From assembly GCF_000215085.1 (NCBI RefSeq), contig NC_015589.1:1302001-1366000 (forward strand): a stretch of 64,000 nt of DNA. The letters are read 5' to 3'. The translations under genes and the position numbers were made by a program. The notes below the pieces were generated by a model. That model had not been told where the DNA came from, searched no databases, and worked only from the letters and a program-made list of their open reading frames with translations. This DNA is from Desulforamulus ruminis DSM 2154 (GTDB lineage Bacteria; Bacillota; Desulfotomaculia; Desulfotomaculales; Desulfotomaculaceae). Shown one piece after another: positions 35,047 to 48,705 of the stretch. Position 1 is the first letter of the stretch; each line of letters starts with the position of its first letter.

Positions 35047-35078
35047 GATAAGAATAGGCATGTTTTGATTTATTTTAT

Positions 35079-35107
35079 GCTGAAGTCTAACGGACTTCAG
35101 CTTTTTT
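35079..35107 (+). terminator. Terminator of the citrate/2-oxoglutarate operon
   Basis: GCTGAAGTC / GACTTCAGC 9-bp stem with a short loop and TTTTTT tail. Confidence 0.9.
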
Positions 35108-35219
35108 GTTGCTTTTCTCGAAATTTGTGTTTTGTTGGTACATTTTTAGCATCGGGAGTTTGTACAAAAATTTATAAAAAGTAAAACCCTATTGTCCACT
35201 AAGCTAAAAAATGGTAAAC

Positions 35220-35248
35220 TTGCATAAAGTAATGATAATGATTATCAA
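35220..35248 (+). promoter_or_regulatory. Candidate promoter of the methyltransferase gene
   Basis: TTGCAT (35220-35225), 17-base spacer, TATCAA (35243-35248). The Fur-like palindrome covers the spacer and most of the -10, the expected layout for repression by occlusion. Confidence 0.55.
35233..35247. promoter_or_regulatory. Fur box (perfect 7-1-7 palindrome)
   Basis: TGATAATGATTATCA is an exact 7-1-7 inverted repeat identical to the Gram-positive Fur consensus core TGATAATNATTATCA. It predicts iron-dependent repression of the downstream gene. PerR and Zur boxes are similar in form, but this sequence fits Fur best. Confidence 0.82.
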
Positions 35249-35344
35249 TATTAATTTTGCATGATTTATATAAGAGTTATCTAGTAGAGACGGTTTAGGT
35301 TATTCATCTATGGATATATGGAGAATCACGGGGGGCGGGGTGAC

Positions 35345-35974
35345 ATGGTGACGGAAAAGGGAAGGAAGTTTAACGGAAGAATCGGTGGGGCTGCTTATGA
35401 TCGATGGGTTTCACTTATGCTTATGAGTCAGACCTATTATCAAAAAGCCATCGGAGATCTTCAGCTTCCGCCGGGGTCTAGGGTGCTGGAATTGGGTTGC
35501 GGGACGGGATCCTTAAGTATTGCCCTTGCTGAAAGGGCAGATCGTTCTTCTGTGTTCTATGGCGTTGATATAGCGGAAGATCAACTGAGTTATGCCCGGG
35601 TCAAGACCCAGGAAGTCCCGTGCACTTTTCAGTTTATCAATTGTTCCATGGATGAGCTTATTTTTGAGGATCAATACTTTGATGCGGTGATCACTTCCCT
35701 GGCCCTGCATGAAACACCGCCCGCCGTGAGGCGGGGTGCGATTCTGGAGACTGCCCGTGTCTTAAAACCGGAAGGGCAGTTTATTCTTGTGGACTGGAGC
35801 AAGCCGCGTTTTGGGCTAATGAGTGCCCTTTGGCTTCCGTTCCTGTTTATGGGAGCGTGGCGGGATAATTGGTACAATGAGTATCGCTTGCTGTGCGAAG
35901 CCGGTGGCTTGGTTCTGGTGGAGGACGAATATATCAATTCATTAATCCGACGGCAGCGGTTTATCAGAATTTGA
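35345..35974 (+). CDS. SAM-dependent class I methyltransferase, iron-regulated
   Basis: A 209-residue Rossmann methyltransferase. Motif I is VLELGCGTGSLSIALAE (about 39-55), followed by the acidic GVDIAEDQLSYA and the motif IV-like FDAVITSLALHETPP and RVLKPEGQFILVDW. A hydrophobic segment (FGLMSALWLPFLFMGAW) near the C-terminal third suggests membrane contact or a lipid-like substrate. The substrate is unknown to me; UbiE-like and arsenite/phospholipid methylases share this architecture. I use the ATG at 35345, behind a GGGGGGCGGGG purine run; ATG 35318 is an alternative. A perfect Fur box lies about 100 bases upstream. Confidence 0.8.
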   Translation: MVTEKGRKFNGRIGGAAYDRWVSLMLMSQTYYQKAIGDLQLPPGSRVLELGCGTGSLSIALAERADRSSVFYGVDIAEDQLSYARVKTQEVPCTFQFINCSMDELIFEDQYFDAVITSLALHETPPAVRRGAILETARVLKPEGQFILVDWSKPRFGLMSALWLPFLFMGAWRDNWYNEYRLLCEAGGLVLVEDEYINSLIRRQRFIRI

Positions 35975-36017
35975 GGCAGTTCTCCCTTTTATATGGAACG
36001 AATCCAACAAGGATTGT

Positions 36018-36034
36018 CATTTACATCATTTTTT
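36018..36034. repeat. 17-bp direct repeat, left copy (possible att-like site)
   Basis: CATTTACATCATTTTTT, identical to 47582-47598. The two copies bracket the second coiled-coil gene plus the entire phage-tail cluster (about 11.6 kb). The sequence is A/T-rich and short, and no integrase lies between them, so this is only a candidate boundary. Confidence 0.4.
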
Positions 36035-36090
36035 GTTCATGGTATTATTTGGGTATCAAATGGTTATCTCTTCGATGAAAGGAATTACCC

Positions 36091-36504
36091 ATGAACAATG
36101 AAGAAAAGATTTTACAGATCCTAACTCAAATGCAAGCTGACGTCTCTGGCTTAAAACAAGGGCAAGAGGAAATTAAAACCGATATTTCTGGATTAAAACA
36201 GAGTCAAGAAGAAATCAGAGTCGATATCTCTGGTTTGAAACAGAGTCAAGAAGAAATCAGAGTCGATATCTCTGGTTTGAAACAGAGTCAAGAAGAAATC
36301 AGAGTCGATATCTCTGGTTTGAAACAGAGTCAAGAAGAAATCAGAGCCGATATCTCTGGTTTGAACCAAAGTCAAGCGAAACTGGAACAAGGACAAGAGG
36401 AAATTAAAGCAGACATTCGGTTTATCAAGATGACATTAAACGAATTTGCTAAAGATATTGGCATGCTGGACAATCGCACGGAGAGTTTGAAAAAGGTTAA
36501 ATAG
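36091..36504 (+). CDS. Coiled-coil protein with 14-residue tandem repeats
   Basis: A 137-residue hydrophilic protein, function unknown. Residues about 17-100 are six 14-residue units of the form D-I-S-G-L-K-Q-S-Q-E-E-I-R-V, with near-identical 42-base DNA repeats. The register (two heptads per unit) predicts a long parallel coiled coil. The N-terminal NNEEKILQILTQMQADV and C-terminal IRFIKMTLNEFAKDIGML are outside the repeat. There is no signal peptide. Its general plan matches the 18.1-kb gene. It lies immediately upstream of the tail cluster, within the 17-bp direct repeats, but has its own terminator, so a link to the tail genes is unproven. Confidence 0.75.
   Translation: MNNEEKILQILTQMQADVSGLKQGQEEIKTDISGLKQSQEEIRVDISGLKQSQEEIRVDISGLKQSQEEIRVDISGLKQSQEEIRADISGLNQSQAKLEQGQEEIKADIRFIKMTLNEFAKDIGMLDNRTESLKKVK
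36139..36390 (+). repeat. 42-bp tandem repeat array inside the coiled-coil gene
   Basis: Six units starting at 36139, 36181, 36223, 36265, 36307 and 36349. Units at 36223 and 36265 are identical; the unit at 36307 differs only at its end (AGAGCC). The outer units have diverged, the pattern left by recent slippage or unequal exchange in the middle. Confidence 0.9.
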
Positions 36505-36609
36505 TCTATCCAAAGAAATGCGAAAAAGGAAAAGGAATTCACCTCATGTCCTTTTAATGTCCTGGTTTTTGAGCAGCAATAAGATAAAATGATATTAGTA
36601 AAAATATCA

Positions 36610-36632
36610 ACCGCCCCAGTGGCGGTTTTTTA
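36610..36632 (+). terminator. Terminator after the 36.1-kb coiled-coil gene
   Basis: ACCGCC / GGCGGT stem, CCAGT-type loop, T6 tail. It separates the coiled-coil gene from the tail cluster. Confidence 0.85.
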
Positions 36633-36790
36633 CTTCAAATGAACAAGTAAGGCAACTCGGCGGTGAATAAATAATCTTTTTGTTTTTCAAATGAAAGGAG
36701 GTGATAGAGACCGCTGGTATCAGGTAGAGCGAGAAGAATTTTTGCAGTTTAAGGAGGTCATGGTAGTAAGATACGGCAGGGGGAGGTTTT

Positions 36791-37216
36791 ATGCTCAATA
36801 AAATTGTAGATGCCATTGGGTTCAAACTAGGCCAGGCATTTGGTGATGAATTTACCATTTACAGCGATACGGAGGAACAAGGAGTGACAGCGCCTTGTTT
36901 TTTTATTGCTGTTTTAAGCCCTAGCCAACAACCGGTTATCGGAAGGAGATATTTTAAAAAGCATCCCTTTGACATTCATTATTACCCTCAAGGACCGGAC
37001 AAGCAAAGGGAAATCAATGATGTAGCCGACAGCTTAAAGGAAGTGCTGGCATACATCACGACGGATGGCCATCTGCTGGCCGGAACCAAAATGCACCATC
37101 AGGTGCTTGACGGAATATTGCATTTCTATGTGGAGTACAACCTGTTTGTTCTGAAACAAATGGAACCGGATGAAACAATGGGAGAATTAACAATCCATGG
37201 TACGGTGAAAGGGTGA
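36791..37216 (+). CDS. Phage tail terminator family protein (XkdJ-like, DUF6838)
   Basis: A 141-residue protein at the position of xkdJ in the Bacillus defective phage PBSX, first gene of the tail module. The N-terminal NKIVDAIGFKLGQAFGDEF and the FFIAVLSPSQQPVIGRRYFK and PFDIHYYPQ strands fit the tail terminator/completion fold. Such proteins cap the contractile tail tube. The start ATG follows GGGAGG. In PBSX the gene upstream would be a head-tail connector; here there is only a terminator and a 160-base leader, so the cluster begins headless. Confidence 0.72.
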   Translation: MLNKIVDAIGFKLGQAFGDEFTIYSDTEEQGVTAPCFFIAVLSPSQQPVIGRRYFKKHPFDIHYYPQGPDKQREINDVADSLKEVLAYITTDGHLLAGTKMHHQVLDGILHFYVEYNLFVLKQMEPDETMGELTIHGTVKG

Positions 37217-37220
37217 TTTG

Positions 37221-37412
37221 ATGATAGATCTAAAAATGACTGCCAACAAAGAGCTGGAAAAAAAGACGTTTACCAAGAAACAAATATTGCTCTGCCAGAA
37301 GTACACCGACAGAAAGGATTTAGTTCGTGTACTGTTGGAGGATGACACTCTCTACAGCTTGGAGCAAGTGGATGCATTGTTAAAAAAATTTATGGAAGGT
37401 AAGGTGAACTAA
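37221..37412 (+). CDS. Small XkzB-like tail-cluster protein
   Basis: A 63-residue basic, helical protein located between the terminator gene and the sheath gene, the place of xkzB in PBSX. Recognisable features are KKTFTKKQILLCQKYTDRKD and the acidic C-terminal YSLEQVDALLKKFMEGKVN. The ATG at 37221 with GAAAGGGTGA upstream is preferred to TTG 37218. Function in the family is not established. Confidence 0.65.
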   Translation: MIDLKMTANKELEKKTFTKKQILLCQKYTDRKDLVRVLLEDDTLYSLEQVDALLKKFMEGKVN

Positions 37413-37414
37413 CT

Positions 37415-38719
37415 ATGGCACTAGGTGGCGGGACTTTCCTAACCCAAAACAAAGTATTACCCGGAACCTATATCAACTTCGTCAGCGCTTCCAGAGCGTC
37501 GGCAACGCTGAGCGACAGGGGTTACGCGGCAATGGCCCTGGAACTGGACTGGGGGGTTGATGGTGAGATATTCACCGTGGAAGCAGGGGATTTTCAAAAG
37601 GAATCCCTAAAAATTTTTGGCTATGATTATAGCAGCGACAAGCTAAAAGGTTTGCGGGATTTATTTAAAAATATTCGTACCGGCCACTTTTACCGGCTGA
37701 ACTCCGGGGAAAAGGCATCCTGCGTTTACGCTACCGCCAAGTACAGCGGCACCCGGGGCAATGACCTTAAAATCATTATTCAGACCAATGTGGATGACCC
37801 CTCCCAATACGATGTCATTACCATGCTGGATACAACCCAGGTTGAGGTTCAGACCGTTGCGGCTGTCACGGAGTTAGTGGACAATGATTTTGTGCTTTGG
37901 AATGATTCGGCAGAACTGGCGCCAACGGCGGCAACACCGCTGACCGGGGGCAGCAATGCCGCTGAGGTAACCGGCGCAGAATACCAGACTTTTCTGGATA
38001 AAATCGAATCTTATACTTTTAACACCCTTGGCTGCTTATCTACAACTGCTACCGTGATAAATCTCTATCAGCAGTTTACTAAGCGCATGCGGGATGAAGT
38101 GGGCGTAAAGTTCCAGACCGTTGTTTATCGAGGGGCGGCTGATGATGAAGGCGTGATCAGCCTGCAGAACAAAGTGACGGACCATGCCAACCCGGCCTCT
38201 TTGGTTTACTGGGTGACCGGCATTGCCGCAGGATGCGAAGTCAACAAGAGCAATACCAACAAGGTATATGACGGGGAATTTGCGGTGGATGTGAATTACA
38301 AACAAAGTGAGCTGGAGGCAGGCATCAAGACCGGCAAATTTATGCTGCACAAAGTGGGCGACAAGATCCGGGTGCTGGAAGATATTAATACCTTTATATC
38401 CGTTACCCCGGATAAAAACAACGACTTCAGCAGCAATCAAACCGTGCGGGTGCTGGACCAAATTGCCAATGACATTGCGGTATTGTTCAACACAAAGTAC
38501 CTTGGCAACGTACCCAATAATCAGGCCGGAAGAATTTCTTTTTGGAATGATGTGGTTAGCTACCATAAGGAACTGGAAAGGATTCAGGCCATTGAGGATT
38601 TTGTCCCTGAAGACATCCTTGTTGAGAAGGGGAATGATAAAAAATCCGTGGTGGTTACCAATACCGTAACACCGGTCAATGCCATGACCAAACTTTATAT
38701 GACCGTGGTTGTCCAATAA
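37415..38719 (+). CDS. Contractile tail sheath protein (XkdK-like)
   Basis: A 434-residue protein with the sheath N-terminus (GGGTFLTQNKVLPGTYINF) and the C-terminal sheath fold (VRVLDQIANDIAVLFNTKYL, VTPVNAMTKLYMTVVVQ). Sheath subunits form the outer contracting cylinder of myophage tails and tailocins and interlock through their terminal arms. It is followed by the tube gene with a 16-base gap, as in PBSX. Presence of sheath makes this a contractile (R-type, not F-type) particle. Confidence 0.9.
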   Translation: MALGGGTFLTQNKVLPGTYINFVSASRASATLSDRGYAAMALELDWGVDGEIFTVEAGDFQKESLKIFGYDYSSDKLKGLRDLFKNIRTGHFYRLNSGEKASCVYATAKYSGTRGNDLKIIIQTNVDDPSQYDVITMLDTTQVEVQTVAAVTELVDNDFVLWNDSAELAPTAATPLTGGSNAAEVTGAEYQTFLDKIESYTFNTLGCLSTTATVINLYQQFTKRMRDEVGVKFQTVVYRGAADDEGVISLQNKVTDHANPASLVYWVTGIAAGCEVNKSNTNKVYDGEFAVDVNYKQSELEAGIKTGKFMLHKVGDKIRVLEDINTFISVTPDKNNDFSSNQTVRVLDQIANDIAVLFNTKYLGNVPNNQAGRISFWNDVVSYHKELERIQAIEDFVPEDILVEKGNDKKSVVVTNTVTPVNAMTKLYMTVVVQ

Positions 38720-38735
38720 CAAAGGAGGGTTACAC

Positions 38736-39203
38736 ATGCAAATGATGCACGCCAAAGACTCGGTCAGCGCATCGCTGGCGGAATGCTTTGTGACCATCGA
38801 AGGCAACAGATACAATTTTATGCAGGCCATCAATCTGGAGGCCAGCATTGAAAAAACCAAGAGCGAAGTACCTATTTTGGGTAAAACCGGCAAAGGCAAT
38901 AAAACCACCGGCTGGAAGGGAACCGGGTCCGCAACCTTTCATTACAATACCGCTATTTTCCGGGAGCTTTTATACCGGTATAAAAACACCGGAGAAGATT
39001 TTTATTTTGATATTCAGGTAACCAATGAAGACCCCACTTCCAGTGTGGGCAGGCAGACCATTATCCTAAAAGACTGCAATGCCAATGGGGGTATACTCAC
39101 CAAGTTTGACGCCGATGCGGAGTATCTGGATGAAACCATGGATTTCACCTTTGAAGATTGGGAAATGCCTGAAAAATTTAAAATGATTGCAGGTATGAAA
39201 TAA
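38736..39203 (+). CDS. Tail tube protein (XkdM-like)
   Basis: A 155-residue protein of the XkdM family that forms the inner tube. The N-terminus (MQMMHAKDSVSASLAECFVT) and the GTGSATFHYNTAIFRELLYRY and DETMDFTFEDWEMPEKF segments are typical. I chose the ATG at 38736 directly behind AAAGGAGGG; the longer in-frame reading overlaps the sheath stop and has no ribosome site. Confidence 0.9.
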   Translation: MQMMHAKDSVSASLAECFVTIEGNRYNFMQAINLEASIEKTKSEVPILGKTGKGNKTTGWKGTGSATFHYNTAIFRELLYRYKNTGEDFYFDIQVTNEDPTSSVGRQTIILKDCNANGGILTKFDADAEYLDETMDFTFEDWEMPEKFKMIAGMK

Positions 39204-39221
39204 AAGGTAAAGGGGATTGCA

Positions 39222-39650
39222 ATGAGTAAATTAAGCGCTTTCTTAAGGCAAAATGCCGTCCAGTCCGGCAACATGAAATATATTGCCTCCCAAAGATTTC
39301 TGGATGAAAATAAAAAGCCCATCGAATGGGAAATCTGCAGTATTACCTCAGAGGAAGACGAAGCCATCCGAAAAGCCTGCACCCGAAAAGTTCCGGTGCC
39401 GGGCAAAAGAAACATCTATACCCCGGAAACCGACTATAACCAATACCTTGGCAGGCTGGCGGCCCAATGCACAGTGTTTCCAAATTTAAATGACGCGGAA
39501 TTGCAGAACAGCTACGGTGTCATGGGGGCGGATACCCTTTTAAAAGCCATGCTTAAACCCGGTGAATACGCCGATTATCTAACTAAAATCCAGGAGATCA
39601 ACGGTTTTGAAGTTACCATGGAAGAGATGGTGGATGAAGCAAAAAACTAA
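39222..39650 (+). CDS. Tail assembly chaperone, short product (XkdN/gpG-like)
   Basis: A 142-residue chaperone that coats the tape measure during tail assembly. The sequence (VQSGNMKYIASQRFLDENKK, YTPETDYNQYLGRLAAQC, TLLKAMLKPGEYADYL) fits the XkdN family. The gene ends in GCA AAA AAC TAA. The heptamer A AAA AAC at 39641-39647 is in the correct phase for -1 slippage, which would fuse this product to the frame at 39647-39832. This mirrors the G/GT scheme of lambda and many long-tailed phages. Confidence 0.88.
   Translation: MSKLSAFLRQNAVQSGNMKYIASQRFLDENKKPIEWEICSITSEEDEAIRKACTRKVPVPGKRNIYTPETDYNQYLGRLAAQCTVFPNLNDAELQNSYGVMGADTLLKAMLKPGEYADYLTKIQEINGFEVTMEEMVDEAKN
39641..39647 (+). promoter_or_regulatory. 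Programmed -1 frameshift slippery heptamer
   Basis: A AAA AAC read in the zero frame as GCA AAA AAC, immediately before a TAA stop. This X XXY YYZ heptamer is among the most efficient bacterial -1 slippery sites. Shifting gives AAA AAA CTA ATC and opens 61 further codons with tail-chaperone-like sequence. Purine-rich sequence about ten bases upstream (GAAGAGATGGTGGA) could act as a Shine-Dalgarno-like stimulator. Confidence 0.82.
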
Positions 39651-39832
39651 TCCAGGAGGGCGATTATGAAGCCAATATGGCCTACTATTGCCTTCATAAG
39701 TTGCGCCTGCTGCCAAGTCAATATCTGGCTTTGGACAGACAGGAAAAAGCCTTTATTATTGCAGCCGTGCAAATCAAAACCGAAAAAGAAAAGAAAGAGG
39801 CGGAAAAAGCCGGAAGAACAAGGAAGCGATAA
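39647..39832 (+). CDS. Tail assembly chaperone, frameshift extension (T part of GT)
   Basis: 61 codons entered by -1 slippage; there is no ribosome site and start suited to this frame alone, although an ATG exists at 39677. The encoded sequence (EGDYEANMAYYCLHKL, then PSQYLALDRQEKAFIIAAVQ and a KEKKEAEKAGRTRKR charged helix) is characteristic of the T segment found after gpG-type chaperones in Gram-positive phages. The fusion product would be about 203 residues. A 66-codon frame starting at 39666 in another phase is rejected as a shadow. Confidence 0.8.
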   Translation, partial: LIQEGDYEANMAYYCLHKLRLLPSQYLALDRQEKAFIIAAVQIKTEKEKKEAEKAGRTRKR

Positions 39833-39879
39833 GGGGATGCTTTTTAACATCCCCTTTCTTCTATAAAGGTGGTGAAAAA

Positions 39880-41514
39880 ATGGCTACAATGAGAACGGCC
39901 ATGCAAATGACAGCCGGCATGTCACAGATGCTGAGAGCGGTGAACCAATCCGTAAATAAGACTATACGCTGCTTTGAGTCGCTGCAATCCGTCGTGCGCA
40001 CGGCGATGGATTCCGATAATATCCAAAGAGTGAGAGTGGATGTGACCGGAACAACAGCGGCATTTAATGAGCTGGGAGATGGGATCGGACAAGCAAAGGA
40101 AGCCCAAAGACTGCTAAACGAAGAGATTCAAAATGGTAGAAACGCCGCAGAGAGTTTACTGCAGAAATTTGCGCAAGCGGGAACCGTCCTTGGGGCAATG
40201 GCAGGCATGAAGAGGGCTATAAACTCCTCCCACCCGATGCTTCAAACAGGGGCAAGTCCTTTTATGAGTCATTCCCTGCCAACGATGGAACCAGCGGCAA
40301 CTGCATTGGATACGCAGATGAAAGAGGCCTTGGCCAACAATGCGGAACTGGCTGTTTTTGCCGGACAAATAAACACAATAGTAGATATGGCAGGTGAGTT
40401 AAGGTCCAATGTACAAAATATAGCCGGGTTTTTAGAAAAAATAGCTGGAATCAATGTATCCAAGCCCTTTTCTGAAATAGCAGGTGCAGCGGCAGGTTTT
40501 GCTGCGGATCACTGGCAAATCATTGAACCGGTTATATGGGGAGTTGTTGGGGCGGTAGCGGCATATAATCTGGTTGCTCAGATTACCAACGGAATACTGG
40601 CGGGACAGGCCTTTATGAAGGGCATTGCAACCTTGGCGTCAAAGGCCCATGAAGCGGCCCTTAAAATGGAGGCGGGAGCAACTTTTTTGGCCATGGTAGA
40701 ACAATACGGATTAAATGCCGCGTTGCTGGCCTGCCCAATTACCTGGATTATACTGGGGATTATCGCCTTGGTGGCCATTCTTTATGCCGTGGTTGCGGCA
40801 GTAAATCAATTTGCCGGCACAAGTATTTCCGCAACAGGCATTATTGCTGGAGTATTTGCAGCTTTAGGCTCCATTCTTTACAATATAATTGCCTATATCT
40901 GGAATGGATGGGCTGCTTTTATTGAGTTCTTTGCCAATGTTTTTACCGAACCGGTCTACAGCGTTCAAAGGTTATTTTTTAATTTAGCCAACAATGTGTT
41001 GACGCTTTTAAGTAAAATCGCCGAGGCTATGGACAAAGTATTTGGATCCAACCTGGCCGGATCAATCACCTCCCTGCAGGGAAAAATGAAGAGCTGGATT
41101 GGCGAGATGCCGGAGGGCTATAAGACCGTCCCGCGTATGGAAATGAGGTCTGTTGTGGATGATTTTAGCGCCGGCTATGATTGGGGGAAGGGCATGTCGG
41201 ATAGGTTTAATTTAGATGCCATTACAGGTGGCGGGGGGCTAAACAATGACAATTTACCGGAAAATATAGCCGCTACTGCCGTCAACACCGCGGCCATGAA
41301 GAATTCCATGGAAGTGGGCGAAGAAGACCTAAAATACATGCGCGACCTGGCGGAGCAAGAAGTCATCAACCGCTTTACCACAGCGGAAATCAAGGTAGAT
41401 ATGGTCAATAACAATACCATTAACAGTTCCATGGATATGGACGGCGTGGTTACCTATTTGACCGAAAAGGTGCAGGAAACCATGGAAATTGCGGCTGAGG
41501 GGGTGCATAGCTAA
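39880..41514 (+). CDS. Tail tape measure protein (short)
   Basis: A 544-residue protein located where tape measures lie, right after the chaperone pair. The N-terminal third is helical and methionine/glutamine-rich (MRTAMQMTAGMSQMLRAVNQ); the middle has hydrophobic helices (VIWGVVGAVAAYNLVAQI, WIILGIIALVAILYAVVAAV, IIAGVFAALGSILYNIIAYI), usual for the part released into the target membrane; the C-terminus is soluble. Since tape length sets tail length, this short tape predicts a short tail. The start ATG follows GGTGGTG. One-base overlap with the next gene. Confidence 0.82.
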   Translation: MATMRTAMQMTAGMSQMLRAVNQSVNKTIRCFESLQSVVRTAMDSDNIQRVRVDVTGTTAAFNELGDGIGQAKEAQRLLNEEIQNGRNAAESLLQKFAQAGTVLGAMAGMKRAINSSHPMLQTGASPFMSHSLPTMEPAATALDTQMKEALANNAELAVFAGQINTIVDMAGELRSNVQNIAGFLEKIAGINVSKPFSEIAGAAAGFAADHWQIIEPVIWGVVGAVAAYNLVAQITNGILAGQAFMKGIATLASKAHEAALKMEAGATFLAMVEQYGLNAALLACPITWIILGIIALVAILYAVVAAVNQFAGTSISATGIIAGVFAALGSILYNIIAYIWNGWAAFIEFFANVFTEPVYSVQRLFFNLANNVLTLLSKIAEAMDKVFGSNLAGSITSLQGKMKSWIGEMPEGYKTVPRMEMRSVVDDFSAGYDWGKGMSDRFNLDAITGGGGLNNDNLPENIAATAVNTAAMKNSMEVGEEDLKYMRDLAEQEVINRFTTAEIKVDMVNNNTINSSMDMDGVVTYLTEKVQETMEIAAEGVHS

Positions 41515-42164
41515 TGTATTCCTTTTACCTGGATAATATGCAACTGCCCATTACCCCCTCTAAACTGCAAATAAAGACACCCAGCCAAAATAAAACCATG
41601 AACCTGATCAATGACGGCGAAATTAACATTCTTAAGCTACCCGGTCTGAAGGAGATTAGCTTTGAAGCCATTATACCCCGGGTGCAATACCCCTTTGGGG
41701 CAAAACTTCAATCGGCCAATCTCTTTTTAAATAAGCTCTGGGAATTAAAAAACAAAAAACAATATTTTTCCTTTACCGTTTCCCGGTTAACGCCTGGCGG
41801 TAAAGCCCTCTTTATGGATGACATCAGCCTGCTGGTATCATTGGAAAGCTACAGCATGATTGAGGACGCTCAAAACGGCCTGGATTTGCTCGTAGGCATT
41901 GAACTGAAAGAGTATAAAAAATTTACCCCGAAGATTGCCACCTTCACGGAAACAGACGGTGGAGAAGTGCTGGTGACAACCGAAAACACCAGGGAAAGCC
42001 GGAAAGAACCGGCCAAAACCTACACCGTTCAATCCGGAGACACCCTGTGGGCGATTTGTAAAAAAGAGCTTGGGGATGGCGGGAAATATGTGGAAATCGC
42101 TAAACTAAACCAAATCAGCAATCCAAACCTGATTTATCCGGGGCAGGTGGTCGAGCTTGGCTAA
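41514..42164 (+). CDS. Baseplate/tube-associated LysM protein (XkdP-like)
   Basis: A 216-residue protein with an XkdP-type N-terminal domain (YSFYLDNMQLPITPSKLQIK) and a C-terminal LysM domain (about 168-216: YTVQSGDTLWAICKKELGDG, NPNLIYPGQVVELG). It corresponds to the gp53/XkdP tail protein that links tube and hub and may touch peptidoglycan. The ATG overlaps the tape-measure stop by one base. Confidence 0.88.
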   Translation: MYSFYLDNMQLPITPSKLQIKTPSQNKTMNLINDGEINILKLPGLKEISFEAIIPRVQYPFGAKLQSANLFLNKLWELKNKKQYFSFTVSRLTPGGKALFMDDISLLVSLESYSMIEDAQNGLDLLVGIELKEYKKFTPKIATFTETDGGEVLVTTENTRESRKEPAKTYTVQSGDTLWAICKKELGDGGKYVEIAKLNQISNPNLIYPGQVVELG

Positions 42165-43116
42165 TGTAGGGCTAACCATCCAAAATGGCAATATAGAATA
42201 CGCCCCGCTCATAGAAGAAGGCATCAACTGGGAGACAGCAAGAAAAGGCATGCCGGGGAAACTTACCTTTACGGTACTGAAAGAAGGACTCATCGATTTT
42301 CAAGAGGGAAATCTAGTCCGGCTGAGGGTGAATGGGGCCGATATTTTCCAAGGGTTTGTATTTGCCAAGAAGCGGGATAAAAGCAATACCATCCAGGTCA
42401 CGGCCTATGATCAGCTAAGATATTTGAAGAACAAAGACACCTACCAGTATACCGATACGGCCAGCGGTCTGATCAAGAGATTGGCCGCCGACTTTAGGCT
42501 GCAGGTGGGAACCATTGAAGATACCGGGTACACCATTGTTAACAGAATTGAAGAGAATAAAACCCTTTTTGACATCATCCAAAACGCCCTGGACTTAACC
42601 CTGCAAAACAAAAAGAAAATCTACGTGCTGTATGACGACTTTGGCAAATTGACTTTAAAAAATATGGAATCCATGAAGCTTGATCTTTTAATCGATCAAG
42701 AAACCGGTGAAAATTTCAGCTACCAATCCTCCATTGACGGCGAGACTTACAACAGGATTAAGCTTTCTTATGATAATGGGCAAACCGGTAGGCGGGATAT
42801 TTATATTGCCGAGCACGGAGAAAATATAAATCGCTGGGGAATGCTGCAGTACTTTGAAAATATCCGGGAGACCACCAACGCCAAGGCTAAAGCCAATGCC
42901 TTACTGGAGTTATATAACCGTAAAACCAGAACCCTGAGCATTGCCAACGCTTTGGGAGATGCGCGGGTTAGAGGAGGAACCGGTGTCGGCATCATTTTAA
43001 ATCTTGGGGATCAATTGGTTCAAAACTACATGCTGGTAGAAAAGGTAAAGCACGTTTTTTACGAAAATGAACACCGGATGGATTTGACCCTAAGGGGAGG
43101 GGATTTTATTGCCTAG
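42157..43116 (+). CDS. Tail hub protein (XkdQ/late control D-like)
   Basis: A 319-residue hub protein homologous in layout to P2 gpD and T4 gp27. Visible are the N-terminal LTIQNGNIEYAPLIEEGINW, the FQGFVFAKKRDKSNTIQVTA strand set, YLKNKDTYQYTDTASGLIKR and the C-terminal GVGIILNLGDQLVQNYMLVE. Start is TTG at 42157 behind GGGGCAGGTGG, overlapping the previous gene by eight bases. Confidence 0.88.
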   Translation: MANVGLTIQNGNIEYAPLIEEGINWETARKGMPGKLTFTVLKEGLIDFQEGNLVRLRVNGADIFQGFVFAKKRDKSNTIQVTAYDQLRYLKNKDTYQYTDTASGLIKRLAADFRLQVGTIEDTGYTIVNRIEENKTLFDIIQNALDLTLQNKKKIYVLYDDFGKLTLKNMESMKLDLLIDQETGENFSYQSSIDGETYNRIKLSYDNGQTGRRDIYIAEHGENINRWGMLQYFENIRETTNAKAKANALLELYNRKTRTLSIANALGDARVRGGTGVGIILNLGDQLVQNYMLVEKVKHVFYENEHRMDLTLRGGDFIA

Positions 43117-43516
43117 CATCGTAGAGCTCATGAAAAAAGCGGCCGTTGAGGCAGTCAACGAAACAAAACCAACGGGTGTTGTCTTTGGGACAGTGGTTGG
43201 AGTAACGCCGTTAAAAATTAATGTTGAGCAGAAGCTGACTCTGGAAGCGGCCCATTTGCTGTTGACGGATAATGTCAGGGACTACACGGTGGAAATGACC
43301 GTAGAACATTTCACTGAAGCGGACGATGACCTCAAAACCTCTCACAGTCACCCGGACGCGGGGGTAGCGTCTTTTGACAGCACACACCGGCACGCCTATC
43401 GGGGCAGAAAGAAATATACCGTACACAACGGGCTGAAAACAGGGGAAGAAGTCATTTTGCTGCAGTTGCCCGGTGGGCAGAAATACATTGTACTGGATCG
43501 GCTGGTGATGAGATGA
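43109..43516 (+). CDS. DUF2577 baseplate protein (XkdR-like)
   Basis: A 135-residue OB-fold-type protein of the DUF2577 family. It begins SIVELMKKAAVEAVNETKPT, has a VVGVTPLKINVEQKLTLEA barrel region, a His-rich insertion (SHPDAGVASFDSTHRHAY) and ends VILLQLPGGQKYIVLDRLV. TTG start overlaps xkdQ by eight bases. Probably a spike-adaptor or hub component. Confidence 0.82.
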   Translation: MPSIVELMKKAAVEAVNETKPTGVVFGTVVGVTPLKINVEQKLTLEAAHLLLTDNVRDYTVEMTVEHFTEADDDLKTSHSHPDAGVASFDSTHRHAYRGRKKYTVHNGLKTGEEVILLQLPGGQKYIVLDRLVMR

Positions 43517-43914
43517 TTCCAAAGATTGCAGATGATTTAAGGCAGGACTTTAAAATCCTGGAACAACCAACCAGAACGTACCGGTTCAATATCCAGAACC
43601 AGACCATTGCCGGGTTTACCGACGGACTGGAAGCCATGAAACAAGCTATCTATAAGATCTTAAACACCGAACGCTACGAGTATTTAATCTACTCCTGGCG
43701 CTACGGCATTGAAATAACCGATTTATTTGGTGAAGCCCCGGCCTATATTTACCCGGAATTAAAAAGACGAATCAGTGAAGCATTAACCCAGGATGATCGC
43801 ATCCAAAGTGTGGATGCTTTTTCTTTTGCGGTTGACAGAGGAACCGTACGGGTTACCTTTACGGTTCATACGCTGTTTGGGGATGTGGAAGCGGAAAAGG
43901 TGGTGAGAATGTAA
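43513..43914 (+). CDS. DUF2634 baseplate wedge protein (XkdS/gp25-like)
   Basis: A 133-residue protein of the W/gp25-like family that starts sheath polymerisation at the baseplate. The motif EAMKQAIYKILNTERYEYLI followed by WRYGIEITDLFG is diagnostic for DUF2634. The C-terminal half is beta-rich (DAFSFAVDRGTVRVTFTVH). Overlaps its neighbours by four bases and one base. Confidence 0.87.
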   Translation: MIPKIADDLRQDFKILEQPTRTYRFNIQNQTIAGFTDGLEAMKQAIYKILNTERYEYLIYSWRYGIEITDLFGEAPAYIYPELKRRISEALTQDDRIQSVDAFSFAVDRGTVRVTFTVHTLFGDVEAEKVVRM

Positions 43915-44969
43915 TGTATGAAAGCATGACCTATGAAAGCATTTTGCAAAGAATGCTGGGTAGGGTGCCCGGCAATGTGGATAAACGTGAGGGCAGCATC
44001 CTTTACGATGCCTTAGCCCCTGCAGCGGCAGAATTGACGCAAATGTATATTGAACTGGATGTAATCCTAAATGAAACCTTTGCCGATACAGCGGGCCGGC
44101 AATATTTAATTAAACGGGCAGCGGAGCGGGGAATCATACCCAGCGCTGCAACCAAAGCCATATTAAAGGCGGAATTTAATATCGACGTGCCCATCGGGTC
44201 AAGATTCAGCATGGACCATCTGAACTATACCGCCACAGAAAAAATCACCGACGGTGAATATAAAGTGCAATGTGAAAGCACCGGCAGTGAAGGGAACCGG
44301 CATTTCGGCACGCTGATACCCATTGACTATATTGACGGATTAAGCCGTGCCGAACTGACGGAGCTGCTAATCCCGGGAGAAGATGAAGAAGAGACCGAGC
44401 ATTTACGGGCTAGATATTATAACAGCCTCATGTCCCAGGCTTTTGGCGGCAACATTACAGACTATAAGGAAAAGGTGAACGCCATCGCCGGTATTGGCGG
44501 GGTAAAAGTCTACCCGGTTTGGGACGGCGGCGGCACCGTTAAACTGGTGCTGATCACTTCCGCCTATCAACAGCCAAGCCAGGAGCTAATTGATACCGTG
44601 CAGGCCGTCATTGACCCGCTGCCCAATCAGGGGCAGGGTTATGGCATTGTACCCATTGGACATAAGGTAACGGTGGTTGGTGCAGCAGCGGAAGCGGTTA
44701 AGATCCAAACGCAGATTACCTGCAACCAGGGCTGGTCCTGGGAGGATGTTCAACCCTACGCCGAGGCGGTCATAGACGATTACTTTTTAGAACTGGCCAA
44801 AACCTGGGCGGATAACAACAACCTGGTAGTCAGAATCAGCCAATTGGAAACCCGGCTGCTCGGTTTAGCCGGTATCCTGGATATTGCCCGGACCCGCATC
44901 AACGACCTGGAAGAAAACCTGATTTTAAAGGCAGACAGCATACCCGTAAGGGGTGAGTTGATTGTCTAG
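43914..44969 (+). CDS. Baseplate J-like protein (XkdT)
   Basis: A 351-residue baseplate wedge protein (P2 gpJ/T4 gp6 family). Landmarks are YESILQRMLGRVPGNVDKRE and GSILYDALAPAAAELTQMYI at the N-terminus, LIPGEDEETE-like acidic loop then LRARYYNSLMSQAFGGNITD, and GVKVYPVWDGGGTVKLVLIT. The ATG overlaps the previous stop by one base. Confidence 0.92.
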   Translation: MYESMTYESILQRMLGRVPGNVDKREGSILYDALAPAAAELTQMYIELDVILNETFADTAGRQYLIKRAAERGIIPSAATKAILKAEFNIDVPIGSRFSMDHLNYTATEKITDGEYKVQCESTGSEGNRHFGTLIPIDYIDGLSRAELTELLIPGEDEEETEHLRARYYNSLMSQAFGGNITDYKEKVNAIAGIGGVKVYPVWDGGGTVKLVLITSAYQQPSQELIDTVQAVIDPLPNQGQGYGIVPIGHKVTVVGAAAEAVKIQTQITCNQGWSWEDVQPYAEAVIDDYFLELAKTWADNNNLVVRISQLETRLLGLAGILDIARTRINDLEENLILKADSIPVRGELIV

Positions 44970-45510
44970 AGAAATTAACCTGTTAAACTACCTGCCCAAT
45001 ATCTTAAAAGAGGTCTGGCAGTTTAAAGCGCTGGCCGAGGCGGAAAACCCCGAATGCATTGCTTTATGGGATGCGCTGGCAAAGGCCATGGATGACCAGT
45101 TTGTCCATGATGCTACCGAAAACGGCGTTCAGAGATGGGAAAGCATCTTAAAGATTGTTCCCAAAGGAGCGGATACACTGGAAGTGCGGCGGTTTCGAAT
45201 TCTAGCCCGCTTAAACGAACAAATCCCCTATACTTACGGAACCCTGGCGCACCAGTTGAAAACCCTGTGTGGGGCGGATGGCTACACCATGGAATTGAAA
45301 AACGATCAATACACCCTGATTGTCCGGGTGGAACTGACGGTTAAGGGTAAATTTAGTGAAGTGGGTGAGCTGCTAAATAGGGTGGTGCCGGCGAATCTGG
45401 TAATTGATCTCAGCCTCAGGTACAACCAGCACCTGACCCTGGCACCCTATACTCATGAACAATTACAAGCCTATACCCATGACCAATTAAGAAACGAGGT
45501 GGTTAGCTAA
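44962..45510 (+). CDS. DUF2313/YmfQ-type baseplate protein (XkdU-like)
   Basis: A 182-residue gpI-like baseplate protein that anchors the tail fibre. N-terminal REINLLNYLPNILKEVWQFK, mid-part GADTLEVRRFRILARLNEQI and the conserved PYTYGTLAHQLKTLCG identify the family. The C-terminus has a duplicated YTHEQLQAYTHDQLRNE unit. TTG start overlapping xkdT by eight bases. Confidence 0.87.
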   Translation: MSREINLLNYLPNILKEVWQFKALAEAENPECIALWDALAKAMDDQFVHDATENGVQRWESILKIVPKGADTLEVRRFRILARLNEQIPYTYGTLAHQLKTLCGADGYTMELKNDQYTLIVRVELTVKGKFSEVGELLNRVVPANLVIDLSLRYNQHLTLAPYTHEQLQAYTHDQLRNEVVS

Positions 45511-45782
45511 TGATTGATAAAACAGCAAATTATAATCTTAGAAAACCGGGCCAGGAAGATTTTTATAACGTGGAAGACTTTAATGCCAACGCCGATATTA
45601 TAGACGTCCAACTAAAGGCTCTCAACGACAAAACCGAAGCCCAAGCCGGCAGCATAATGGCCCATACAGCTGCCGAGATGCCGCATATTATGACCGATGG
45701 TAGTGTGAGGTATCAATACGGCTTTAAGCCGGTCACGGTTAACGGAAGCAAAACCATCGCAATTGTATATGAGGTGATATAA
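45510..45782 (+). CDS. Short tail-fibre N-terminal-type protein
   Basis: A 90-residue protein whose start (DKTANYNLRKPGQEDFYNVE then DFNANADIIDVQLK) is the classic N-terminal baseplate-binding segment of PBSX-type tail fibres (XkdV). It stops after a short beta-rich region (GFKPVTVNGSKTIAIVYEVI). The Gly-rich fibre gene begins directly after its stop. This could be a deliberately split fibre or a fibre truncated when a new distal module was acquired. Confidence 0.75.
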   Translation: MIDKTANYNLRKPGQEDFYNVEDFNANADIIDVQLKALNDKTEAQAGSIMAHTAAEMPHIMTDGSVRYQYGFKPVTVNGSKTIAIVYEVI

Positions 45783-46865
45783 ATGGTAAACCAAATTAAT
45801 TTAGCGGATAAAGCCACCCTAGACAGTGTGAATAGCAAAGTGGACACCACAGTAAGCAGTCGTGCAAGTCAAACAACTGTGGATGCAGCTAATACAAACA
45901 TCAACACAGTCAACACAAAATTAGGCGCATCAACAGACGCAGCCAACAGTGGTGGTACGACATTATTTAGCTTGATTAAGTATGCAGTCAATATGTTTAC
46001 ATCCTATTGGACACCGATAAGGGCTGGAAATTTGGATAGATTGGACACGGCAATAAGCAGCAGGGCAACCCCTGCGGATGTTACTAGTGCAAGGGATAGT
46101 ATAAACATAAATATGAATGCAAAACATAGCGAAACTAGATCAATAATTTTAAATCAATTAAACGATGCGCATGGCTGCAAACATTTTACATCAAATGGAA
46201 ATTTTACAGTACCATCAGGTGTAACTAGTATATTTGTTACCGCTTGTGCCGCCGGCGCTAATGGGTTTGCTGGCTCAAATACTCCTGGTTTCGACCGTGG
46301 TGGTGGTGGTGGCGGTGCCGCCAGCGGTTATGGTTGTGGCGGTGGAGGCGGTGGTGGGCCTTTTGGCGGTGGTGGTTCTGGTGGTTCTGGTTGGTGTGGT
46401 GGTGGTGCCGGTGGTGGCAGTGGGCCTAGTGGTTATGCTAGTGGTGGTGGTGCCGGTGGGGCCGGTGGGGCATATGTAATTAATAAACAATATACAGTAG
46501 TCCCTGGCGAAGTATTAACTATAACAGTAGGTTATGGCAATACTACTATATACGGTACTCAAAGTGGAACTTTGCAAACGTTGATTAAAGGGACGGGAAC
46601 CTCTTTTAAATCAAATTTGGATAAGTTAATAGTATCTCCTGGTGGTGGCGGTGGCGGCGGTGGTTCTGGCAGTAATAGTAGCGGTGGTGCTGGCGGTGGC
46701 CCTGGCGGTGCTACTATTCATAATGGTGGTAACTGTGGTGAACCGGGTAAACCTGGTTCACCCGGTGAAAGTAGTATTTTTGGTGCCGGTGGAGTTGGTG
46801 GAGCTGCTGGTTTTGGTGGTGGTGGTGGCAGTGGTGGGCCGGGGATTGTAATAATAGAGTGGTAG
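45783..46865 (+). CDS. Glycine-rich tail fibre / receptor-binding protein
   Basis: A 360-residue putative distal fibre. Residues 1-125 are helical/coiled (SKVDTTVSSRASQTTVDAAN); from about 137 follows the pattern FTSNGNFTVPSGVTSIFVTA, then long glycine blocks (GGGGGGAASGYG, GGGGGGGPFGGGGSGGSG, GGGGGGGGSGSNSSGG) and a WW-less IVIIEW end. This matches the phage glycine-rich domain in which polyglycine strands pack into a sandwich and loops bind receptor, as in T4-type gp38 adhesins. The DNA is (GGT/GGC)n, a hot spot for length change. Base use in the first part and the following gene is A/T-richer than the rest of the cluster. Confidence 0.8.
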   Translation: MVNQINLADKATLDSVNSKVDTTVSSRASQTTVDAANTNINTVNTKLGASTDAANSGGTTLFSLIKYAVNMFTSYWTPIRAGNLDRLDTAISSRATPADVTSARDSININMNAKHSETRSIILNQLNDAHGCKHFTSNGNFTVPSGVTSIFVTACAAGANGFAGSNTPGFDRGGGGGGAASGYGCGGGGGGGPFGGGGSGGSGWCGGGAGGGSGPSGYASGGGAGGAGGAYVINKQYTVVPGEVLTITVGYGNTTIYGTQSGTLQTLIKGTGTSFKSNLDKLIVSPGGGGGGGGSGSNSSGGAGGGPGGATIHNGGNCGEPGKPGSPGESSIFGAGGVGGAAGFGGGGGSGGPGIVIIEW

Positions 46866-46878
46866 GAGATGAAGAATT

Positions 46879-47238
46879 ATGTCAACTTATATCCAAGTGA
46901 TAAATAATTTTGTAAATCTGATAGGTGGAGCAAAAGAGGGTTTGCCATTACCAAAAGAGTTTCTAGATCAAAATCACAATATAAAAAATTTAGAAGCAAA
47001 TAATTATATCGAATTACCTCAAATTAATGATTATTATGATGATATAAAAGACGAATTTATACCATATCAAGAGTGGTTAAAGACGCACCCGCCATCTGAA
47101 CCAGAAATACCCGACCAAGATGTTATCCAAGCCGAAATGCTACTAAATCAGGTTAAAATATTAGCTGCTTTAAACCGGCAAGATGAGTTTAATGCATTAA
47201 TGTTACTGCAAACTGTAGGAGGTGCGAGAGATGTATAA
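46879..47238 (+). CDS. Hypothetical fibre-associated protein (possible fibre chaperone)
   Basis: A 119-residue acidic protein immediately after the fibre gene. The middle is Asp/Tyr-rich (LPQINDYYDDIKDEFIPYQE), a proline hinge (HPPSEPEIPDQD) leads to a C-terminal helix (VIQAEMLLNQVKILAALNRQ). The C-terminal helix resembles segments seen in small tail proteins next to XkdX; the place is that of tail-fibre assembly chaperones. Strongly A/T-rich compared with the baseplate genes. Its stop overlaps the xkdX-like start by eight bases. Confidence 0.6.
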   Translation: MSTYIQVINNFVNLIGGAKEGLPLPKEFLDQNHNIKNLEANNYIELPQINDYYDDIKDEFIPYQEWLKTHPPSEPEIPDQDVIQAEMLLNQVKILAALNRQDEFNALMLLQTVGGARDV

Positions 47239-47362
47239 ATTTGTTAAACGATACTATGATATGGGTATTTACACCCAGGATAATGTCAAAACGTTTGTAA
47301 TCGCCAACAAGTTAACAGCAGAAGAATACGAACAAATAACAGGTGAGGCATACGCCAAGTAG
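47231..47362 (+). CDS. XkdX family small tail protein
   Basis: A 43-residue protein, too short for many gene callers. The sequence (YKFVKRYYDMGIYTQDNVKT, then FVIANKLTAEEYEQITGEAY) is a clear XkdX: aromatic Tyr-rich start, (Y/N)T-x-x-(D/E)-V-K, and the TAEEYEQITG end. In PBSX and relatives xkdX follows the fibre genes and precedes the lysis cassette (holin, amidase). Here nothing lysis-like follows. GTGCGAGAG lies just before the ATG as a weak ribosome site; translation is probably coupled to the preceding gene. Confidence 0.85.
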   Translation: MYKFVKRYYDMGIYTQDNVKTFVIANKLTAEEYEQITGEAYAK

Positions 47363-47384
47363 GTTATTTTTATGTCCCGATGAT

Positions 47385-47412
47385 GCCCCGGTAGTCAACC
47401 GACCACCGGGGC
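47385..47412 (+). terminator. Hairpin closing the tail cluster
   Basis: 12-bp stem with a single mismatch and AACC loop. The T-run is weak (CATTCTATATT), so it may be an mRNA end-protecting hairpin or imperfect terminator. Confidence 0.6.
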
Positions 47413-47581
47413 CATTCTATATTGACACACACAGGACGATCCTTTCTTGTTTTCTTGATTGCTTGAATTGAAATTTATTTTTCTGTGCTATTTCATTTTC
47501 AACTTTTTACTTCTACAGTTTCGAGCGTATTTTAAACAACATTCATGAAATTTTATAGGGGATGAATAGGCGTAGAATTCC

Positions 47582-47598
47582 CATTTACATCATTTTTT
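47582..47598. repeat. 17-bp direct repeat, right copy (possible att-like site)
   Basis: CATTTACATCATTTTTT, identical to 36018-36034. See left copy. Confidence 0.4.
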
Positions 47599-47699
47599 TG
47601 GATGAAACTCCCCAAAGCAAAAATATTTTCCTCCAATAAAGAACGAATCATCTTCAGATACTAAGATTGAAAGTATGGACTAATGAGGGAGGAAAATTT

Positions 47700-48089
47700 A
47701 TGTCTAACAGAACCAATTTCGGTGAACACACCATGGGTGCTTACCGTTTAAAAGACATGCACGACGCCCAATTTCCGGGCGGGGTGGTGGTGGACCCCAC
47801 ACCCATTACCGCCGGCGAGGAAGTGGTGGTCTTTTATAACGGTCTTCTGGCCCAAAGCGGAGCGGATCAGGTGTATCTGCACTGCGGCTTTGGGGATGCC
47901 CAAAATTGGAGAGCAGTTAAGGACGCCCGGATGGCCAAGACAGGATTTGGCTTTGTGAAAGTGCTGGAAATGCCGGATACCCATACCCAGTTCAACCTGT
48001 GCTTCCGTGACAGCGCCCAAAATTGGGACAACAACAACGGGATCAACTGGAGCTTCCAGGTTCACGACGGGACTATCAACGGCCATTAA
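47700..48089 (+). CDS. Stand-alone CBM25-like starch/glycogen-binding protein
   Basis: A 129-residue single-domain protein. The fold signature of carbohydrate-binding module family 25 is clear: EVVVFYNGLLAQSGADQVYL, then HCGFGDAQNW, MAKTGFGFVKVLEMPDTHTQ and the ligand loop NWDNNNGINWSFQVHDG. CBM25 binds alpha-1,4-glucan. It has no catalytic domain and no signal peptide, so an intracellular granule-binding role beside the nearby glucan-synthesis genes is likely. I use the ATG at 47700 behind GGGAGGAAAA. Monocistronic, with its own terminator. Confidence 0.85.
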   Translation: MSNRTNFGEHTMGAYRLKDMHDAQFPGGVVVDPTPITAGEEVVVFYNGLLAQSGADQVYLHCGFGDAQNWRAVKDARMAKTGFGFVKVLEMPDTHTQFNLCFRDSAQNWDNNNGINWSFQVHDGTINGH

Positions 48090-48096
48090 AAAGATA

Positions 48097-48146
48097 AAAA
48101 GATCCCTGCCGGGTCACTTTGCACCCCGGTAGGGATCTTTTTTTGT
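48097..48146 (+). terminator. Terminator after the CBM25 gene
   Basis: AAAAGATCCCTGCCGGG pairs with CCCGGTAGGGATCTTTT (one mismatch), loop of about 11 bases, long T tail. Confidence 0.9.
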
Positions 48147-48155
48147 ATTTAATTA

Positions 48156-48260
48156 AGAATAGAACATGGATTTAATGGATGACAAATTTGCGTAGATTTT
48201 AAATAAAGATTAAAAAATTCGTGAAAATCAGTGGAAATCCGTAAAATCCGTGTTCTATTA
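48156..48260. repeat. ACGGATTT-family palindromic repeat, copy C
   Basis: Left arm AAGAATAGAACATGGATTTA, degenerate inner units, right arm GGAAATCCGTAAAATCCGTG then TTCTATTA. More decayed in the left arm than the other copies. Confidence 0.8.
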
Positions 48261-48276
48261 TTTTTTTACAAAAGAA

Positions 48277-48322
48277 GGGCTGCTGCAAAACGAACCATTC
48301 TGTGTTCTTTTTGCAGCAGCCC
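48277..48322. other. Long hairpin following repeat copy C
   Basis: GGGCTGCTGCAAAA and TTTTGCAGCAGCCC are perfect complements (14 bp) around a loop containing CATTCTGTGTTC. Related loop sequence follows repeat copy B (near 24020), and related arm sequence (GGAGCTGCGCAAAAC) follows copy D (near 59949), so it seems to be part of a larger composite repeat. It could also act as a bidirectional terminator. Confidence 0.65.
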
Positions 48323-48393
48323 CTGCCGGAGTTTGAATTTTAAAACCGAACGGATATAATCAATGGGTTGTCCTTTTAATCTTGATAATTCAA

Positions 48394-48519
48394 TCACCGG
48401 ATATCATCGTAGGACATGACTAAAATTTTAGGAGTCTTTCTTTTTTCCTGCTCCTCCATACCGGTATTTTGTTCCACAGTTTCTTGGTTTTCGGATGGGA
48501 GAGAATCTTTTTTCAGCAT
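48394..48519 (-). CDS. Small hypothetical protein (41 residues)
   Basis: A short frame on the minus strand with a good GGAGGG six bases before its ATG. It is hydrophilic and acidic at first (LPSENQETVEQNTGMEEQEK) and ends KTPKILVMSYDDIR. The ribosome site and amino-acid balance suggest it is real, but no homologue is recognised. It stands alone between the repeat and glgA. Confidence 0.5.
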   Translation of the reverse strand: MLKKDSLPSENQETVEQNTGMEEQEKRKTPKILVMSYDDIR

Positions 48520-48594
48520 TAGTAGCCCTCCGTTCAATTTTTTCTAGTATTCCTGGCGAGGGAATCTTTATTCGCCTTTAAATCGGGAGCGGTA

Positions 48595-48634
48595 AACCGG
48601 ATCTCATTTTATAAATGATATCCGGTTCTTTTTC
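48595..48634 (+). terminator. Hairpin terminator upstream of glgA
   Basis: AACCGGAT..TCAT and ATGA.ATCCGGTT form a stem with an A/T loop, followed by CTTTTTC. It would stop plus-strand transcripts entering the glgA region. Confidence 0.7.
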
Positions 48635-48705
48635 AGTAATATTGAAGCTAAAAATGGTAAATACTAGCTTGGCGATGGAAAAGTTGCGTTTGGAGGGTGC
48701 GTGAA

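Follow-up and report, generated by a model that had tools for sequence, protein, structure and literature searches.

Several kinds of phage tail-like contractile systems are known. Diffocin, the R-type tailocin of Clostridioides difficile, has lysis and switch genes, PBSX-like defective prophages contain head genes and package host DNA, and the extracellular contractile injection systems (Afp/PVC/MAC) are defined by AAA+ ATPase and effector cargo genes. Here we describe a headless contractile tail cluster in the genome (3.97 Mb) of Desulforamulus (Desulfotomaculum) ruminis, a sulfate-reducing bacterium of the rumen. The window, i.e., the whole stretch of DNA analysed, comprises 64,000 nucleotides (bases 1302001-1366000), and positions below refer to it unless stated otherwise. 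A complete and unbroken contractile tail of the PBSX/XkdK type is encoded at 36791-47362, according to the reading of open reading frames (ORFs) and comparison with Pfam and PHROG. From sequence comparison we lean slightly towards regarding this cluster as the structural part of an R-type tailocin that descends from the tail of an XkdK/phiC2-type phage and acts as satellite of an unlinked master cluster. We do so because the set of tail genes is intact, switch and release genes of its own are absent and its promoter with hairpin has its sole exact match in the genome at the master cluster.

R-type tail cassettes of Clostridia are well described (PMC10538166, in the parts available). For comparison, relatives of the window cluster were gathered from genome and viral collections, namely 60 genomes including that of D. 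ruminis, and IMG/VR. Headless XkdK-type clusters of Clostridia (e.g., L120, L010, L210, L225 and L134), which are probable R-type tailocins, have the same genes in the same order as the window and no head; among the loci compared, identity reaches 82% for the tube and 66% for baseplate J. The sheath of C. difficile phage phiC2 is 64% identical to that of the window and its gene order is the same, but in phiC2 the tail module directly follows genes for terminase, portal and head. Diffocin is more distant: its sheath CD1363 (E 1e-9), tube CD1364 (7e-6) and baseplate protein CD1371 (5e-23) are homologous to those of the window, and its sheath chain has 354 aa versus 434 aa.

The original prediction had described a compact run of genes in PBSX order with no broken gene, and both order and frames were confirmed over the 10.6 kb of the cluster. 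The genes are closely packed as claimed, with junctions that range from -11 to +18 nt, with the exception of a 229-nt gap between chaperone and tape measure. This gap contains the -1 frame extension of the chaperone (heptamer AAAAAAC at 39641-39647, 61 additional codons to 39832). The -1 frame is open, with similar sequence, in all eight relatives compared (one ended by the contig end), and the preserved frameshift signal was substantiated as well.

Equally, the stated lack of capsid, portal, terminase, integrase, repressor, holin and endolysin genes held in 35047-48690. Neither Pfam nor head-gene searches found head or packaging genes there; the latter detect head genes of the XkdK-type phage family, and only one head gene of an unrelated Mu-like check prophage was detected with them. 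Integrase, repressor and lysis genes were not found in the same interval, and AAA+ ATPase, membrane anchor or effector genes had no match in the cluster (Pfam, PHROG). The cluster thus differs from PBSX-like defective prophages by its lack of head genes and from Afp/PVC/MAC systems by its lack of AAA+ ATPase and effector genes. With R-type tailocins it shares the complete contractile set and the absence of head and packaging genes; lysis genes at the same locus, which are common in R-type tailocins and which we did not take as strictly defining, are absent.

A second tail cluster and a common late promoter

Besides the sheath gene of the window, the D. ruminis genome contains two more. One lies in a Mu-like prophage, in which ORF reading and one head match point to terminase-like and portal-like genes. 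The other is part of a second headless contractile cluster (type 2; 3.536-3.554 Mb, L004 and L055) with a sheath of 483 aa. It is self-sufficient, with a divergent helix-turn-helix (HTH)/S24 repressor, a 179-aa regulator, an Amidase_3 protein, a 105-aa hydrophobic protein that is a putative holin, and fibres carrying Mtd N-terminal domains. Type-2 clusters were also detected in the congeners G005, G002 and G007, with a split sheath ORF in the last (genome 72% complete).

The window and type-2 tail operons are preceded by a common element. In it, TGTCC repeats spaced 11 bp apart are separated by 20 nt from TAWAATG, and a hairpin (AACCGCC-loop-GGCGGTT) with a T-run comes next. Across the 3.97 Mb the 18-mer TGTCCYTTTNNTGTCCTG is matched exactly at only two places, one in front of each tail cluster, and the sole exact genome counterpart of promoter plus hairpin (36547-36627) precedes the tail operon of the second cluster. 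On the circular chromosome the two promoters are about 1.75 Mb apart, counted the shorter way round. With up to one mismatch, the 45-nt composite occurs at six sites in four of the 60 genomes (own included), five of them exact; the reversed-pattern control gave two sites, and 1.8e-5 exact matches per genome are expected from base composition. Tail genes follow all six promoters. Three of the sites belong to type-2 clusters (D. ruminis, G005 and G002) and one to the late operon of a head-bearing prophage (G027); the remaining two precede the window cluster and an F-type tail set of G002. The hairpin lies 62 nt from the repeat in five of the six. Exact pattern matches in IMG/VR were found on two contigs, both with type-2 clusters.

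The promoter is located just after the regulator gene in the D. ruminis type-2 cluster, in G005 and in the G027 prophage, and the type-2 cluster of G002 is alike. Only two promoters lack an adjacent regulator: that of the window and one in G002, on a separate contig. A profile of the 179-aa regulator had matches in six of the 60 genomes, one copy each, and the strong matches (E 1.9e-97 or better) are exactly the four promoter-bearing genomes. Hence D. ruminis possesses one regulator and two promoters, as does G002. The regulator matches the PHROG transcription regulators phrog_36 and phrog_248, and in the predicted structure the C-terminal helices can be superposed on sigma region 4, e.g., of 3vfz (root-mean-square deviation 1.2 over 59 columns, TM 0.86 by target).

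By comparison of sequences, the G002 locus whose promoter lacks an adjacent regulator (L280:4539-12992) is an independent and structurally different case of the same arrangement. Here, between rplJ and rpoB, the shared late promoter is followed by a headless F-type (non-contractile) tail set. Recognised in it were a major tail protein (phrog_88), a tape measure (phrog_58), Dit (PF05709, PF22768) and a 1026-aa Tal-like protein (PF06605). Genes for head, regulator, lysis or tail terminator were not recognised in this set, and the longest word shared by its flanks has just 9 nt.

Proposed mode of action

In the proposed mechanism, DNA damage would inactivate the S24/HTH repressor of the second cluster, the putative master. 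The sigma-region-4-like regulator would bind both promoters at their phased TGTCC repeats and, acting as activator or antiterminator, carry RNA polymerase across the hairpin. The two tails would then assemble, the amidase and the small hydrophobic protein of the master would lyse the cell, and the released particles would puncture bacteria picked by their fibres. As expected of a satellite, the window cluster carries the promoter of the regulator and not the regulator. LexA-type boxes have the consensus CGAACNNNNGTTCG; no such site was found upstream of either cluster with up to two mismatches.

Parts of this scheme have described counterparts. In Pseudomonas aeruginosa, the PrtR/PrtN pair, the P-box and one holin/lysin pair serve the two tail types of the R/F pyocins (PMC8609362, in the parts available), with both tails in one locus, whereas D. 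ruminis has its tail sets at unlinked places and a regulator from a different family. The antiterminator AlpA of the same species acts at a promoter-proximal site and an intrinsic terminator before each of two operons (PMC7969949, in the parts available). The likeness consists of the site upstream of the -10 region and the hairpin tens of nt downstream; AlpA itself targets lysis and other genes rather than tail genes. A literature search that mostly left out subscription journals found no description of an unlinked tail module placed under the promoter of another tailocin.

More generally, we give an even chance to the idea, based on these sequence comparisons, that tailocins can form a regulon in which a self-sufficient master supplies switch and lysis, and structurally unrelated naked tail modules at unlinked housekeeping loci (of R-type in D. 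ruminis and F-type in a congener) join simply via the master's late promoter and hairpin. If so, a single DNA-damage signal would fire two particles with different fibres, widening the target range with one lysis, and a testable route for adding tail modules without a second suicide switch would be at hand. Tail clusters that lack a head as well as lysis and regulatory genes are readily dismissed as phage debris; a common promoter offers a sequence-level means to separate a satellite weapon from a remnant.

Several points weigh against the satellite reading. Expression, particle assembly and killing by the window cluster are predictions, and we infer the binding of the regulator to the promoter from co-occurrence in four genomes, three of them of one genus. 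Regulator homologues in G038 and G058 (5e-33 and 1e-14) occur without this promoter. The likeness to sigma region 4 comes from a three-sequence model (mean pLDDT 79.6) with weak Foldseek E-values (best 0.02), and neither the regulator nor the 105-aa putative holin has a Pfam match. In the type-2 cluster of G002 the promoter deviates by one mismatch, and the 3' half of the hairpin is missing. The motif was spotted by eye when two upstream regions were compared, and a generic sigma-70 scan did not list the window promoter. Only exact matches of the 18-mer carry weight, because sites with three mismatches are no commoner than in the reversed control (94 versus 97).

Insertion, ancestry and rival explanations

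Judged from the genome comparison, the window cluster is an insertion between leuB and the CBM53-glycosyltransferase genes, since the site is empty in all six congeners examined (of eight) and the cluster is bracketed by a unique 17-bp repeat. In these congeners, 159-3101 nt separate the leu genes from the CBM53, glycosyltransferase and nucleotidyltransferase genes beyond them, and tail genes are missing; G006 differs in that leuD, not leuB, borders the CBM53-side genes. The repeat is perfect, has just two copies in the genome (up to one mismatch) and is missing from the six empty sites. Chance repeats of the flanks reached at most 16 nt in 3000 Markov simulations and 12 nt in 1000 real control flanks. 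Because there is no integrase inside, the repeat may be either att-like or a target duplication. A close homologue of the window sheath was found in none of the eight congeners, three of which gave weak matches (about 25-29%) to sheaths of the second cluster type; among the 60 genomes the only other close homologue is that of G027 (58%), a genome from the same taxonomic order. A methyltransferase ORF (35318-35974) was rejected as part of the element, as it lies outside the repeats; it has no relative in the 59 other genomes (E 1e-20).

A total of 138 loci with sheath or tube was collected: 90 have head or connector genes, 25 are headless, 22 are too short and one is the window. Headless here means no head or connector gene over at least 1.5 kb upstream, as judged by the head families of this phage group; removal of duplicates left 21 such loci. 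Regulator matches were obtained in 18 of the 21 (one far downstream; none in L093, L158 and L192) and lysis matches in nine, or 11 counting adjoining stretches, in a survey in which some loci supplied the queries and several contigs stop after the fibres. Unlike most of these headless relatives, the window cluster has neither.

Single headless ancestry was considered and dropped. A 31-locus tree had put the window beside headless loci (0.956), but a tree of 92 loci (six concatenated proteins) gives its position little support (0.307 and 0.672), and a 27-row IQ-TREE places it no more precisely than inside a group of 21 (SH-aLRT 96) mixing headless and head-bearing loci. In the six-protein trees of 92 and 27 loci, its group consists of two well supported headless clades and several prophages. 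Headlessness arose more than once in this group on the evidence of these trees, since it changes three times, at least two of the changes being forced by well supported branches. The nearest relative by identity is head-bearing (70%). Head genes adjoining the module in close relatives had been named as the finding that would speak for a recent deletion. They do adjoin the homologous module in many relatives, which points to phage ancestry; since about 70% over the concatenated proteins is the highest identity that any related tail module reaches, a sign of recent deletion is missing. Gene order varies among the relatives: in L011 the tube gene precedes terminator and sheath, with terminase and portal after the sheath, and in L097, L099, L101, L102 and L103 the XkdQ, LysM and DUF2577 homologues lie beside the portal, upstream of the sheath and not downstream.

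Three explanations had been offered for the cluster: a tailocin released by lysis genes elsewhere, a non-lytic machine and a stable prophage remnant. The first fits best, given the second cluster with repressor, regulator and amidase and the common promoter, while the remnant is kept as a rival. It is possible, though doubtful, that integration of a prophage or tailocin at the 17-bp site was followed by loss of integrase, switch, head and lysis genes, with nothing being made and the frames intact only because the loss is recent. The bracketing repeat without integrase would fit such a history, as would the occurrence of the tail module in head-bearing prophages, the absence of a close homologue from all eight congeners and the lack of the regulator and lysis genes of most headless relatives. 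Against a remnant speaks that a precise regulatory sequence has survived, although, with the G027 prophage as reference, the preceding regulator gene and the following head genes would both have to have been lost. Nor did we see a broken frame in 10.6 kb or any head-gene trace in the 300 nt upstream or in 35047-48690; three frames of 36505-36801 and a 36-aa ORF, tried as remnants of head genes, scored no higher than shuffles against the head and connector proteins of relatives. Codon use bears on the time of residence. Its distance is 0.22 to D. ruminis versus 0.39-0.85 to nine relatives, and the third-position G+C content (GC3) of the cluster is 0.54, above the 0.18-0.44 of 18 relatives and below the 0.63 of nearby housekeeping genes. 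Host-near codon use and intact frames fit long residence; they could also come from recent arrival from a compositionally similar host, which likewise tells against the satellite reading. In favour of a functional cluster we count the intact frames, the preserved frameshift, the conserved regulatory element, the host-near codon use and a weak kinship of its fibre with one of the second cluster. No second D. ruminis strain was found for comparison.

Two further explanations are less probable still. It is quite unlikely that the cluster is a self-regulated tailocin, with an unrecognised local regulator such as the coiled-coil ORF at 36091 and a release route apart from the second cluster. This ORF lies inside the repeats and gave the single match to regulator and lysis queries in 35047-48690, to an XhlA-like lysis-cassette protein (E 9e-4); the match is of the coiled-coil kind, however, no membrane segment was noted on sequence reading, no DNA-binding domain was found (Pfam, PHROG) and the shared promoter comes only after the ORF. 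A cell-bound, non-lytic contractile machine resembling a type VI secretion system or tCIS is very improbable. Only the absence of lysis genes speaks for it, and against it stand the missing AAA+ ATPase, membrane anchor and effector genes as well as the fibre genes, the XkdX-like ORF and the relatives, all of the released-particle kind.

Features of the locus

The features are listed in Table 1. The predicted start of the cluster at 36691 was corrected: the 36-aa ORF there is probably leader, because it has no homologue in the loci of relatives and its likeness to head proteins is at the level of shuffled sequences. The 5' features are instead the promoter, the hairpin and the left direct repeat. 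Promoter, second cluster, bracketing repeat and empty site had all been missed in the original prediction.

Table 1. Features in and around the tail cluster of the window.
Feature	Position	Strand	Evidence or remark
Left copy of 17-bp direct repeat CATTTACATCATTTTTT (att-like or target duplication)	36018..36034	+	genome search
137-aa coiled-coil repeat ORF, passenger inside bracketed stretch	36091..36504	+	Pfam, PHROG
Late promoter (putative): TGTCC repeats 11 bp apart, 20 nt, TAAAATG	36547..36591	+	comparison of upstream regions
Leader hairpin with T-run, terminator-like	36609..36627	+	kept in 5/6 such promoters
Tail terminator (XkdJ-type)	36791..37216	+	Phage_tail_terminator_8, PF20765, E 3e-36
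XkzB-like small protein	37218..37412	+	phrog_966, E 9e-18
Contractile tail sheath (XkdK-type), 434 aa	37415..38719	+	four Pfam domains: PF04984, PF17482, PF17481, PF22671
Tail tube (XkdM-type, DUF2001)	38709..39203	+	PF09393, E 2e-53; true start may be more downstream
Tail assembly chaperone (XkdN-like)	39222..39650; -1 frameshift product to 39832	+	PF08890
Tape measure protein, 544 aa	39880..41514	+	phrog_1068, E 7e-110
LysM hub protein (XkdP-type)	41514..42164	+	PF01476, phrog_380
XkdQ/YqbQ-type hub	42157..43116	+	PF24032, E 2e-113
DUF2577 protein (XkdR-type)	43109..43516	+	PF10844
Sheath initiator (DUF2634, XkdS-type)	43513..43914	+	PF10934
Baseplate J (XkdT-type)	43914..44969	+	PF04865
DUF2313/Mu gp48-like protein (XkdU-type)	44962..45510	+	PF10076
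Short fibre protein, 90 aa	45510..45782	+	N-terminus common to fibres of many related loci
Glycine-rich fibre protein, 360 aa	45783..46865	+	phrog_863, E 3e-7
119-aa ORF, possibly XkdW-like	46879..47238	+	name from position alone
XkdX-like ORF, 43 aa	47231..47362	+	read from sequence
Right copy of 17-bp direct repeat CATTTACATCATTTTTT	47582..47598	+	genome search

The 119-aa ORF has no family match (Pfam, PHROG), and the last ORF is presumably XkdX, a name we gave it from position and resemblance. No relatives of the 360-aa fibre protein were found among phages or PDB structures; its kinship with a fibre gene of the second cluster is weak (33% over 87 aa). A scan of 47100-48700 listed no intrinsic terminator after XkdX, and a hairpin is visible by inspection at 47386-47411.

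The cluster as such is already catalogued: IMG/VR entry UViG 650716033_000002 covers exactly 36791-47362, filed as a viral fragment. D. ruminis has been counted among poly-lysogens (PMC8146710, in the parts available), and the available parts of the genome paper of strain DL (PMC3569383) make no mention of a phage, prophage or bacteriocin.

Some minor observations concern neighbouring genes and the other tail loci of the genome. The coiled-coil ORF is built of 14-residue (42-nt) repeats, weakly matches a coiled-coil PHROG named 'minor head protein' (9e-8) and has distant relatives in five of 21 genomes, own included. In the second cluster, a 690-aa protein (L055:11977-14049) combines an N-terminal peptidase S24/S26-like domain with an Ig-like match, which is odd for a tail fibre. 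In the Mu-like prophage (L005, 1.769-1.789 Mb of the genome), sequence reading places a ferredoxin-like 74-aa ORF (9309-9533) directly 3' of the sheath gene.

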